This document shows positions 31,349 to 36,404 of a DNA stretch of 64,000 nt, piece after piece; positions within the stretch are counted from its first letter, which is position 1, and each line of letters opens with the position of its first letter. Source of the DNA: Prevotella sp. E13-27. GTDB taxonomy: Bacteria > Bacteroidota > Bacteroidia > Bacteroidales > Bacteroidaceae. The position numbers and the translations under genes were made by a program. The notes below the pieces were generated by a model that saw only the letters and a program-made list of their open reading frames with translations, was not told the origin of the DNA and made no database searches. Location: positions 62,001 through 126,000 of the forward strand of contig NZ_JALPSC010000001.1 of NCBI RefSeq assembly GCF_023217965.1, read 5' to 3'.

Positions 31349-31389
31349 AAATATCGGGAACAGAACATTCATGTCCGCTCCCGATATTT
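31349..31389 (-). terminator. Terminator of the triplet-RiPP/tat operon
   Basis: Perfect 11-bp inverted repeat AAATATCGGGA (31349-31359) with TCCCGATATTT (31379-31389), followed on the minus strand by a T run. It lies 10 bases after the tatC stop and marks the operon's end. Confidence 0.8.
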
Positions 31390-31398
31390 AATACAAAC

Positions 31399-32241
31399 CT
31401 ATTTCTTATGTTTCGAATCATATTCAATCCGCCTTACCACCCTAATACTTACTTCATAGAGCAAGTAGAGAGGAATAGAGACTAGTATCAATGTCATTAA
31501 GTCTGGTGGAGTAATAATAGCTGCAATCAGCATGATAACGAGGAAAGAATGCTTACGATATTTGGAAAGAAGCTCAGAAGTAATAACGCCCATCTTTCCA
31601 AGGAAATAAGCAATAACGGGCAATTGGAATACTATCCCCATGACCAGTGTCAACGAAGCAAAGGTAGAGATATAAGAATCGAGCGTAATGTTGCTTGTCA
31701 CCTTTGTAGAAACGCTATAAGTACCTAAGAAACGAAAAGAAATAGGAAATAGTATAAAATATGACATCAGCACGCCGAGGATAAACAGCACATAGATAAT
31801 CCCTGCCACCTGTACAGAATACTTTCGCTCATTTTCATAGAGAGCTGGCGATATGTAGCAGAACAATTCATAGAGGATATAAGGGGACGCTCCGAGCAAG
31901 CCAAGATACACTGCCGTCGTGATATGTGTCATAAACTGACTTGACAAATCGGTGGCAATCATTTCAACATGAAACTCGTCGAAATGAAAATCCAAACCTA
32001 TTGACTGGATAGCTGACTCTATCCAGCGATAGGTGCAGAAATCCCACTCACTCGGTGCAAGCAATAAACTCCATGTGGAGTCCTTAAAATAGAACACCAC
32101 TATGGAGATAATGCCGGCAACAGCAAGAATGCGGAAGAGCATTTGGCGGAGTACTTCCAGATGTCCGCCAAAAGTCATCTGATTCGGATTGGAATTACTT
32201 TCCTGCTCCGTTGGCTTCTTTGCGTTCCGCTTCTGCTTCAT
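31399..32241 (-). CDS. tatC: TatC, twin-arginine translocase subunit (RiPP-linked copy)
   Basis: About 280 residues from ATG 32241, which overlaps tatA; ATG 32178 (MTFGGHLEVLR) just after the tatA stop is an equally plausible start. Six transmembrane helices. TatC signatures include the N-terminal FGGHLEVLRQ segment with the Glu of the signal-binding site, QFMTHITTAVYLGLLGASPYILYELFCYISPALY, FLGTY and the last-helix FQLPVIAYFLGKMGV. It forms the signal-peptide receptor of the Tat translocon. It closes the operon that begins with the radical SAM genes and includes two Tat-signal precursors, so it is probably dedicated to them. A second tatC is at 55872-56618. Confidence 0.94.
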   Translation of the reverse strand: MKQKRNAKKPTEQESNSNPNQMTFGGHLEVLRQMLFRILAVAGIISIVVFYFKDSTWSLLLAPSEWDFCTYRWIESAIQSIGLDFHFDEFHVEMIATDLSSQFMTHITTAVYLGLLGASPYILYELFCYISPALYENERKYSVQVAGIIYVLFILGVLMSYFILFPISFRFLGTYSVSTKVTSNITLDSYISTFASLTLVMGIVFQLPVIAYFLGKMGVITSELLSKYRKHSFLVIMLIAAIITPPDLMTLILVSIPLYLLYEVSIRVVRRIEYDSKHKK

Positions 32242-32416
32242 CCTTCATCTCTTCCGGTTTAGATTCTTCAAGCGGTTCGTTCATGCCCTGCTTGAAACTC
32301 TTAACACCTTTGCCTAAGCCTTTCATAAGCTCAGGCACTTTCTTCCCACCAAAAATGAGCAATGCTACACCTGCAATAAGCAGTAATTCTGTTGTTCCAA
32401 TAAACAAAAGTGTCAT
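32195..32416 (-). CDS. tatA: TatA/E, twin-arginine translocase subunit (RiPP-linked copy)
   Basis: 73 residues from ATG 32416, where the TatA-type N-terminal helix starts (MTLLFIGTTELLLIAGVALLIFGG). It is followed by the hinge FGGKKVPEL, the amphipathic helix MKGLGKGVKSFKQG and an acidic tail. The longer frame upstream is not TatA-like. It forms the Tat pore with TatC, whose gene overlaps its end. The Bacteroidales type has one tatA and no tatB, as seen here. Confidence 0.93.
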   Translation of the reverse strand: MTLLFIGTTELLLIAGVALLIFGGKKVPELMKGLGKGVKSFKQGMNEPLEESKPEEMKDEAEAERKEANGAGK

Positions 32417-32554
32417 GATACGATTTTGATTATTTTTGATTTCTTTGTTGATGTCCAAGTGCCGTTCTCTGAAGAATTCTGCTTGGTACTTTAAAACAAG
32501 AAACAATATTACATTATTTCATGACTCCCTAGATTGTATTCAATTCCTATTTTA

Positions 32555-32836
32555 TTACTTAGAAGTAGCATCTGAATAGTTTTGATAGTTATGATAATTG
32601 CTGTAGTCTCTATAATTACCATAATTATAATAATCCTTATGATTTGAATAGTTATCATAATTTGTATAATCATTATAACACCTATCAACATATTTATTGT
32701 CTACATAACCATCTGAATCCCTTGCCATTATGCTCCCATTGGGAAAAATTGATGCAACGGCAGCAACCATAGCTGTTTGAGCCATTCTTTTGAGTGCCTC
32801 TCGCCTGGAAATATTTTCCTTTTGTTTCATATACAT
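32555..32836 (-). CDS. Tat-signal triplet-repeat precursor peptide, 93 aa
   Basis: 93 residues (ATG at 32830 is an alternative). An N-terminal Tat signal, SRREALKRM at 10-18, is followed by a hydrophobic stretch to about Ala38. After two isolated Tyr-Val-Asp triplets (44-46, 49-51) and Cys53 come twelve contiguous triplets at 54-89 of the form aromatic-X-Asn/Asp. Eleven start with Tyr and one with His (His-Lys-Asp, 66-68). A four-residue tail follows. It has no resemblance to any enzyme. By neighbours (two radical SAM enzymes upstream, tatAC downstream) I read it as a RiPP precursor. It is a divergent twin of the 86-residue protein at 32897. Confidence 0.85.
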   Translation of the reverse strand: MYMKQKENISRREALKRMAQTAMVAAVASIFPNGSIMARDSDGYVDNKYVDRCYNDYTNYDNYSNHKDYYNYGNYRDYSNYHNYQNYSDATSK

Positions 32837-35104: not shown

Positions 35105-36060
35105 GATTTCTTATTTATTACGTGAGAGATACAACCGGCTGTACACACATTTTTTTTACGATAATTGCAGGATGTGCAACTTTCATAAATTCCTTCATTA
35201 TTTCTCATTTCATACATTTTTTTAGTATAGAAGTCGTTGATTTCGCGCATTGAATCGAACTCAAAAACGCTTCTTCTGTTGATGCTAGATAGAGGAAAAC
35301 AACTCCATACAGACATGTCTGGACCAATATCTATGGCTGGACCGCATTTAAATTCAAGACGGCCATTAGACCAAAGAAACATTTCCCCCAATTGTTTTTC
35401 TGTGAAAATACACAAGGGAAAACCGCAATCAAAACCAATCTCAATATTCTCTTTCTTATATTTCTCATAGAAATACGATAGTCTTTCCGCTACTTTAGGG
35501 AAATCAACAGGAGGAATGCAATGGTTCGGTTGATTGGGAATGGGATGAGCCAAGCCGAGTCGAATATGATTCTTCAATTTATATTTTCTAATATATTCAA
35601 TAAGGAAATCAAAAGAGAAATCCAATTCGTAGATATTAAAACTCAGATTAGTTCGTTCTCCAAAAGTTTCCAAGAATAGATTTACCTTGGTTAGTTCATT
35701 AGCTGGAGATTTCGCAGGATCATTAACGTTACAAATAAACTGATAATTTAGATCTTTATATGATAGTTCTTTTTTAATAACCTCGAATTTCTTGTCTGTC
35801 GTAATTCCACTAGTAAAGATTGATGAATGAATTCCTCTTTTGGAGAGATAATAAATAAACTCTGAAAAATGCGGATGAAGAAGTGGTTCACCGCCTAATA
35901 GAGAAATATGGTGATCTCCAGACTTTAAAATAAAGTCAGCAAGATAAATTAGATTGTCCCAAGAAAGCATATCTTTAGGAGAGACCTCACCCATATACTT
36001 TTGTGCAAAGCAATAAGGGCATGATCTTACGCAGAGTTGAGTTAGAAGAACATTTGCCAT
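35101..36060 (-). CDS. Radical SAM protein with C-terminal twitch/SPASM-like cysteines
   Basis: 319 residues, first gene of the operon. The cluster motif is C10-x3-C14-x2-C17 (CVRSCPYC), with GGEP at 56-59. The C-terminus has FKCGPAIDIGPDMSVWSCFP and ESCTSCNYRKKNVCTAGC, consistent with an auxiliary cluster. It may add a second modification, or act with the 33184-34278 maturase. The His-Xaa-Ser (Hxs) systems also carry two radical SAM proteins and a repeat precursor, but the sequences here did not bring a named family to mind. It follows the structured leader RNA directly. Confidence 0.88.
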   Translation of the reverse strand: MANVLLTQLCVRSCPYCFAQKYMGEVSPKDMLSWDNLIYLADFILKSGDHHISLLGGEPLLHPHFSEFIYYLSKRGIHSSIFTSGITTDKKFEVIKKELSYKDLNYQFICNVNDPAKSPANELTKVNLFLETFGERTNLSFNIYELDFSFDFLIEYIRKYKLKNHIRLGLAHPIPNQPNHCIPPVDFPKVAERLSYFYEKYKKENIEIGFDCGFPLCIFTEKQLGEMFLWSNGRLEFKCGPAIDIGPDMSVWSCFPLSSINRRSVFEFDSMREINDFYTKKMYEMRNNEGIYESCTSCNYRKKNVCTAGCISHVINKKS

Positions 36061-36089
36061 ATATGCAGTTTTTTAAAATCGATTCTATT

Positions 36090-36371
36090 AGCCGTGCATC
36101 TGATATTAGGGGCACAAAGAATGGCGTGGCCACTCTTATGCACTTACCTAAGGGGCAGACGTAGGAAAATGGAACCCCTCACTTCATACAAGAATGCAAC
36201 CACGCCAAGGCGTGTGCATAGCTAATGCTAGAAGTGAGGAATAGCCTTCCATCGGCCTTTCCCTTTGCTTTCTTAAATCGAACTATTCCTAAACAGATTT
36301 CCTACGTCTTTTCGGTAAGTGCGAAATAAAAGCTAATGCATCTGCGGTTCGGGATTTCTCCCCGATACCGC
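36090..36371 (-). ncRNA. Highly structured leader or small RNA upstream of the radical SAM operon
   Basis: On the minus strand, from just after the promoter, the roughly 280-base stretch folds by perfect complementarities. A 5' hairpin is 36344-36353 with 36361-36371. Two long-range helices follow: 36140-36148 with 36314-36322 (9 bp) and 36158-36168 with 36298-36308 (11 bp). Inside them two more pair: 36237-36244 with 36283-36290, and 36178-36185 with 36231-36238, the latter enclosing a CACG/CGTG hairpin near 36201-36214. AGCTAATGC occurs twice (36220-36228, 36331-36339). No terminator is visible before the gene at 36060, so a cis leader is favoured. It lacks the hallmarks of tmRNA, RNase P, SRP, TPP or cobalamin elements. 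Confidence 0.65.
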
Positions 36372-36373
36372 TA

Positions 36374-36404
36374 CAAAGATAGAGAAAATATTTTAATCCT
36401 GCAA
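36374..36404 (-). promoter_or_regulatory. Promoter of the triplet-RiPP operon and its leader RNA
   Basis: TATCTTTG on the minus strand (36374-36381) matches TAnnTTTG, with TTG at 36402-36404 spaced 20 bases upstream. Transcription would start a few bases before the first hairpin of the leader, leaving a leader of about 310 bases. Confidence 0.75.

Follow-up and report, generated by a model that had tools for sequence, protein, structure and literature searches.

Most natural ribosomally synthesized and post-translationally modified peptides (RiPPs) are small and exit via dedicated ABC exporters. Dynobactin and darobactin systems use short one-core precursors and exporters other than twin-arginine translocation (Tat), and Hxs and GG-Bacteroidales systems combine repeat or short precursors with paired radical S-adenosylmethionine (SAM) proteins. 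Among the triceptides, YxdB is described as linking Tyr C3 to the beta-carbon of Asp, and other triceptide enzymes as working on Trp, Phe or His as the aromatic residue, with Asn, Ser or Arg in third place (PMC11002830); pseudo-radical-SAM partners are described for Bacteroidales (PMC10352776). We analyzed a stretch of 64,000 nucleotides from Prevotella sp. E13-27 (contig NZ_JALPSC010000001.1, positions 62,001 to 126,000; hereafter the window, in whose positions coordinates are given), where a seven-gene operon encodes radical SAM proteins A and C, a cluster-less partner B, two triplet-repeat precursors, PepA and PepB, and the translocon proteins TatA and TatC. We consider it fairly probable that this is a radical SAM peptide system in which the Tat signal doubles as leader, the triplets are cross-linked singly by C with the help of A and B, and the folded product is exported via the operon's own TatA-TatC. 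The operon runs on the minus strand from 36404 to 31349, with the genes in the order A, B, C, pepA, pepB, tatA, tatC:

36374 to 36404, minus strand: promoter region, with a TATCTTTG box at 36381-36374 read by eye
36140 to 36322, minus strand: core (183 nt) of a structured 5' leader RNA, from fold and covariation
35101 to 36060, minus strand: A, radical SAM protein with CX3CX2C and a C-terminal Cys set, from PF04055 and alignment
34280 to 35104, minus strand: B, cluster-less pseudo-radical-SAM partner with a SPASM-like Cys remnant, from alignment and an AlphaFold2 model
33184 to 34278, minus strand: C, radical SAM/SPASM protein and putative triplet maturase, from PF04055 and PF13186
32897 to 33157, minus strand: pepA, precursor with putative Tat signal, 12 Y-x-[N/D] triplets and a C-terminal DCH, from sequence
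32555 to 32836, minus strand: pepB, precursor with putative Tat signal, YVDRC and then 12 [Y/H]-x-[N/D] triplets, from sequence
32195 to 32416, minus strand: tatA, TIGR01411 and PF02416 above cut-off
31399 to 32241, minus strand: tatC, long-branch paralogue overlapping tatA by 47 bases, TIGR00945 and PF00902 above cut-off, and tree
31349 to 31389, minus strand: terminator hairpin, fold z -4.9

The original prediction had claimed this gene set with its order, couplings and boundaries, and all of these were found in place. The enzyme genes are tightly coupled, with a 4-base overlap between A and B and a 1-base gap between B and C. The TATCTTTG box, which we take to be a promoter from the Bacteroidales consensus, lies in a region (36374-36404) where a sigma-70 scan listed nothing, and the hairpin at 31349-31389 was not listed by a consensus terminator scan despite its fold score. 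Directly upstream of the operon lies an AbiEii/AbiEi toxin-antitoxin pair (36548-38160, minus strand).

The precursors stand out by their repeats. A six-frame reading of the window holds exactly two runs of at least four [YHFW]-x-[N/D] triplets, those of PepA and PepB, each with 12 unbroken triplets, and 277,511 bases of other loci outside these clusters contained no run of at least four aromatic-x-[N/D] triplets. We assembled 24 homologous precursors, namely 20 PepA relatives from a database search, the two window peptides and two from locus L005 of another genome. All 24 contain SRRxALKRM, and their runs of 7-15 triplets sum to 293. Positions 1 and 3 were set by the search pattern. Position 1 is Tyr in 284 triplets and His in 9, and position 3 is Asn in 213 and Asp in 80, whereas the middle position accommodates 18 residue types. 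Every triplet thus presents an aromatic-x-x motif with a third residue suitable for a triceptide precursor. Furthermore, between the window and L005 no residue changed at position 1 (0/24), two changed at position 3 (2/24, both N to D) and 17/24 changed in the middle, while synonymous codon changes numbered 5, 7 and 3 at positions 1, 3 and middle, respectively. At the level of sequence, then, positions i and i+2 of the triplet are constrained and x is free, as would be expected if Tyr and Asn/Asp are bonded. The proposed triplet-by-triplet modification thereby gains indirect support: Tyr and Asn/Asp are held, x varies, and His, likewise a known triceptide aromatic, takes the place of Tyr in the 9 triplets counted above. 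The Cys residues flanking the runs also fall in register. In 15 A-type peptides D/N-Cys-His/Tyr/Asn directly follows the run, P0126 having a YRE-YTD extension in between, and in nine B-type peptides the run begins directly after Arg/Lys-Cys.

A and C both carry CX3CX2C and match PF04055 (Pfam). The cluster Cys of A are invariant in a 10-row alignment, while C, which has 549 relatives in the protein database (E 1e-10), also matches PF13186 and TIGR04085 above cut-off and keeps eight SPASM-region Cys invariant over 41 rows. C is thereby, like the triceptide enzymes (YxdB, OscB/GrrM, XncB/XyeB, MscB/FxsB, YhhB, HaaB), a SPASM radical SAM enzyme accompanied by an aromatic-x-x motif. Unlike them, it falls under all listed NCBIfam cyclophane cut-offs, YxdB being compared by description: the window protein scored 53-120 bits against cut-offs of 310-450 for the curated Grr/Osc, Xye, Fxs, Yhh and Amc families, and the C-type proteins of L012, L015 and L024, along with P0073 and P0095, were likewise below every listed cyclophane-family cut-off. 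The operon further differs from triceptide systems in the Tat signal that serves as putative leader and in the addition of radical SAM protein A, pseudo-radical-SAM protein B and tatA/tatC. The original prediction had pointed to an NCBIfam search of the three enzyme proteins; in it none of the A, B and C proteins tested passed any listed cut-off except that of the generic SPASM domain.

The models nearest to C, all under cut-off, were TIGR03942, DynA and GrrM/OscB. Among NCBIfam models, DynA ranked first or second for the six C-type proteins tested, which reached only 29-37% of its cut-off score; C resembles the DynA/DarE maturases in rank and departs from them in score. The solved structure closest to C by sequence is anSME (E 2e-28). 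A role as sulfatase maturase was rejected, since C scores 138 of 349 bits for TIGR03942 and has Gly272, in 11/11 rows, at the position of anSME Asp277, which follows the third auxiliary Cys and is presumably the catalytic base. C thus appears by sequence to be nearest to anSME, DynA and the cyclophane makers. The Hxs and GG-Bacteroidales pseudo-radical-SAM systems are similar in joining repeat or short precursors to paired radical SAM or pseudo-radical-SAM proteins, but C reached only 72 of 370 bits for the HxsB equivalog, B did not match TIGR04150 (GG-Bacteroidales pseudo-rSAM), and the His-x-Ser repeat was not seen here. B lacks CX3CX2C in 10/10 B proteins and has no Pfam match over cut-off; its sole NCBIfam match at E of at most 1 was TIGR04085, at 23 of 27 bits. 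Its AlphaFold2 model (predicted local distance difference test, pLDDT, 87.7) has a partial TIM barrel with a SPASM-like tail, as in the radical SAM/SPASM fold, and moderately matches SPASM radical SAM peptide enzymes. On this basis we predict that B has a radical SAM fold in degenerate form.

We also asked how the system recurs in other genomes. Searches with C gave, the window's own hit included, 1/301 in the family (single sequence, E 1e-30), 6/393 in the order, 5/395 in the phylum and 1/395 in the class, and smaller searches gave 2/60, 1/11, 3/6, 4/65 and 1/1. The comparison set comprised 12 loci besides the window, including two named contigs; the L004 operon is 97-99% identical to that of the window and hence not independent, and L022 and L023 likewise resemble each other closely. 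The same gene order, which the original prediction had suggested looking for in other Bacteroidales, was found: A-B-C is kept in 11/12 loci, spread over several families of the order and a further class, and in the remaining one (L021) the contig ends 152 nt upstream of C. In 10/12 loci a Tyr-rich precursor adjoins, the other two (L014, which stops 145 nt past C, and L021) being at contig ends; in L026 the precursor extends off the contig end. No locus among the 12 had intact flanks and lacked a Tyr-rich precursor, and the original prediction, for which enzyme homologues consistently without precursors would have counted against the system, holds on this point. The association persists although C of the co-occurring loci has diverged to 39-48% identity. 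Enzymes, repeat precursors and Tat thus travel together, Tat in the form of tatA in 5/12 loci (L004, L005, L012, L013, L024). The claim that the peptides have their own Tat system held for the window, L004 and L005, the only loci with tatC; elsewhere it did not, there being tatA alone (L012, L013, L024) or no tat gene. In L012 (7892-8779), L013 (6855-7754) and L016 (3634-4509), where it was assigned with Pfam, and also in L025/L026, a GT9-family gene separates C from the precursors or tatA and could possibly place a sugar on the product. Seven loci from viral contigs, whose radical SAM proteins were merely 22-26% identical, were dropped. A plasmid search with A found distant homologues, L090 (29%) and L091 (23%), in other RiPP-like clusters; a Chlorohelix plasmid homologue sits in a cluster with a twin-arginine protein (by eye), and a Thiodictyon plasmid homologue in one with annotated PqqD, YcaO and TfuA proteins. 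A search of the first of the two plasmid clusters for Tyr triplets found none.

The N-termini of PepA and PepB are likely Tat export signals. The twin-arginine motif is present in 24/24 homologous precursors and in the precursors of 9/10 precursor-bearing loci of the comparison set, and the operon's TatA and TatC score over cut-off. In L015 the sequence is KKKEALKRM, with KKK replacing the twin arginine, and the Tat route may not be used there. The signal model TIGR01409 matched 19/32 precursors screened (E of at most 0.1; best 6e-4), PepB weakly (E 0.16) and PepA not at all. A count of A-x-A cleavage sites (23/24 precursors) was discarded because the pattern is too loose and also matches within the hydrophobic stretch. 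Since a second tatA-tatC, which the original prediction had not mentioned, is present in the window (55627-56618, plus strand), the operon pair is an addition. A TatC tree of 29 rows grouped the operon copies of the window, L004 and L005 in a single clade (100/100, branch 1.41) and placed the second TatC of the window elsewhere, as sister to a same-genus TatC (96/94) within a clade of mostly same-genus rows. With positions in E. coli numbering, the operon copies keep Glu at 15 and 103; Glu170-to-Gln was rejected as their mark, as Gln also occurs in L033, and the presence of TatC as a correlate of the enzymes (11/11 versus 15/19) was uninformative. According to a 2013 survey, about 5% of species have two or more tatC loci, for which it proposes specialised roles (PMC3827258). 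Downstream of the second pair, within 55627-59556 (plus strand), lie genes for a ferredoxin-rich protein and for an aldo-keto-reductase-like protein with a Tat signal (by eye).

In divergent relatives, the recurrence of Tyr at every third residue is less strict, [NDSG] is under expectation at i+3 in 9/9 precursors, and the Tyr arrays span 43-133 residues. Beside A-B-C in L022 (5788-6600), L023 (4269-5144) and L024 (5160-6131), a Tat signal and Tyr/Ser repeat are followed by an Lcl_C domain that ends the precursor. The collagen-like adhesin model NF046116 matches 3/32 precursors (best E 8e-17). These precursors thus resemble the Lcl collagen-like adhesin, but have a Tyr/Ser repeat in place of the collagen stalk; the window peptides have no Lcl match. 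The repeat in genus g288, which belongs to another class, is likely a stalk bearing the Lcl adhesin domain.

Gene set, recurrence, triplets, twin-arginine motif and the separate TatC clade are all read directly from the sequences, and by analogy with triceptides we infer a triceptide-like RiPP with the Tat signal as leader. C would bond the ring of each Tyr to the beta-carbon of Asn/Asp at i+2, with a loss of 2 Da per triplet and 24 Da for 12, and B would hold the leader or core for A. Because the enzymes require the reducing cytoplasm, cross-linking would precede export; Tat would take the already rigid, folded chain, and signal peptidase would remove the leader, leaving a rigid periplasmic or surface rod. 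The placement of Cys at the C-terminal end of PepA and right before the first triplet of PepB suggests that, in the lineage of the window, a disulfide may couple the two head to tail. The long Tyr arrays and Lcl_C fusions favour a structural role. Only tentatively, the products can be pictured as cyclophane-stapled tyrosine rods, stapled per triplet in the cytoplasm, exported folded by a dedicated Tat translocon with the signal as RiPP leader, and then disulfide-coupled or used as adhesin stalks.

Other explanations share parts of this evidence. The triplets might be modified otherwise than from aromatic ring to beta-carbon, by a Tyr-oxygen ether, Tyr excision, epimerisation or hydroxylation, given that C is about equally close to anSME/DynA and to the cyclophane makers, that two radical SAM proteins could perform two reactions, and that Tyr is almost constant. 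Yet Asn/Asp at i+2 is nearly as strict as Tyr with x free, which fits a link from i to i+2, and Gly follows Tyr/His in just 28/293 triplets, so that the X-Y-G motif of PlpX-type spliceotide Tyr excision is not a requirement here; we regard such chemistry as unlikely. A secreted two-peptide antimicrobial or signal, rather than a structural rod, would account for the paired short precursors, and both the neighbouring AbiE pair and the relationship of C to the dynobactin/darobactin enzymes agree with it. The operon's seven genes, however, include neither an immunity gene nor a peptidase-containing ABC exporter, and the length of the divergent Tyr arrays and the Lcl_C-fused precursors also speak against such an agent, which appears quite improbable.

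Tyr-rich repeats can be structural by themselves, and the case for modification is drawn from sequence; the peptides could then be unmodified, structural or metal-binding, with radical SAM genes that act elsewhere and merely share the operon. This is the least probable of the alternatives, as precursor and enzymes stay linked across classes despite the divergence of C and the constraint inside the triplet is position-specific.

The operon is preceded by a 312-nt leader (36061-36372), likewise not mentioned in the original prediction, that folds at z -6.05. It is 82% identical in L004, versus 97-99% for the proteins, and across the 54 pairs of the core the two sequences differ by 8 compensatory changes with 0 broken. 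A covariance model from window and L004 found 32 places in 26/149 relatives, all of one genus, with three in this genome. In an alignment of 31 copies that was fitted to the structure, 41/54 pairs vary on both sides, and pairing holds in 94.7% of cells, versus at most 49.4% when slid. Rfam had no match in the window leader and none at gathering score in the 20 of 30 other leader loci searched; one match in the window, on the opposite strand inside C, was at chance level (E 0.3, far below gathering score). The leader thus represents a strongly covarying structured RNA family, not found in Rfam by these searches. In 23/30 loci (L060-L089) the first possible start of a same-strand open reading frame lies between 3 nt ahead of the leader end and 92 nt past it. 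The leader stands before unrelated genes, with a further check on five of them; they include a radical SAM operon, an EcoRI-type methylase, and PAPS-reductase-like, acyltransferase and glycosyltransferase genes. It may serve as a regulatory leader or as a landing site for cassettes. L004 has no match to the 296 nt upstream of the window leader, and downstream neighbours look different between the two (by eye), which suggests that the operon occupies different sites in window (36404-31399) and L004 (5892-10862) and has moved recently.

The original prediction had cited no system uniting radical SAM enzymes, repeat peptides and Tat, and a literature search, mostly outside subscription journals, likewise gave no description of this combination, nor of a natural RiPP exported by Tat with translocon genes of its own, an A/B pair or adhesin-fused precursors. 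The words twin-arginine, tatC and tyrosine are absent from the main text of the Bacteroidales RiPP survey (PMC10352776), and the nearest parallel in the literature covered is an engineered Tat display of nisin (PMC11048544). The proposed chemistry is already known in kind; what would be new is a natural RiPP that travels through Tat and brings the translocon genes with it, together with the A/B pair and the fusion of precursors to an adhesin domain. The proposal makes a clean prediction, a step of -2 Da per triplet, twelve in succession. If true, a Tat-routed RiPP whose signal is its leader would account for the passage across the membrane of a peptide that oxygen-sensitive iron-sulfur enzymes have made stiff, and radical SAM cross-linking would shift from antibiotic chemistry to the building of materials.

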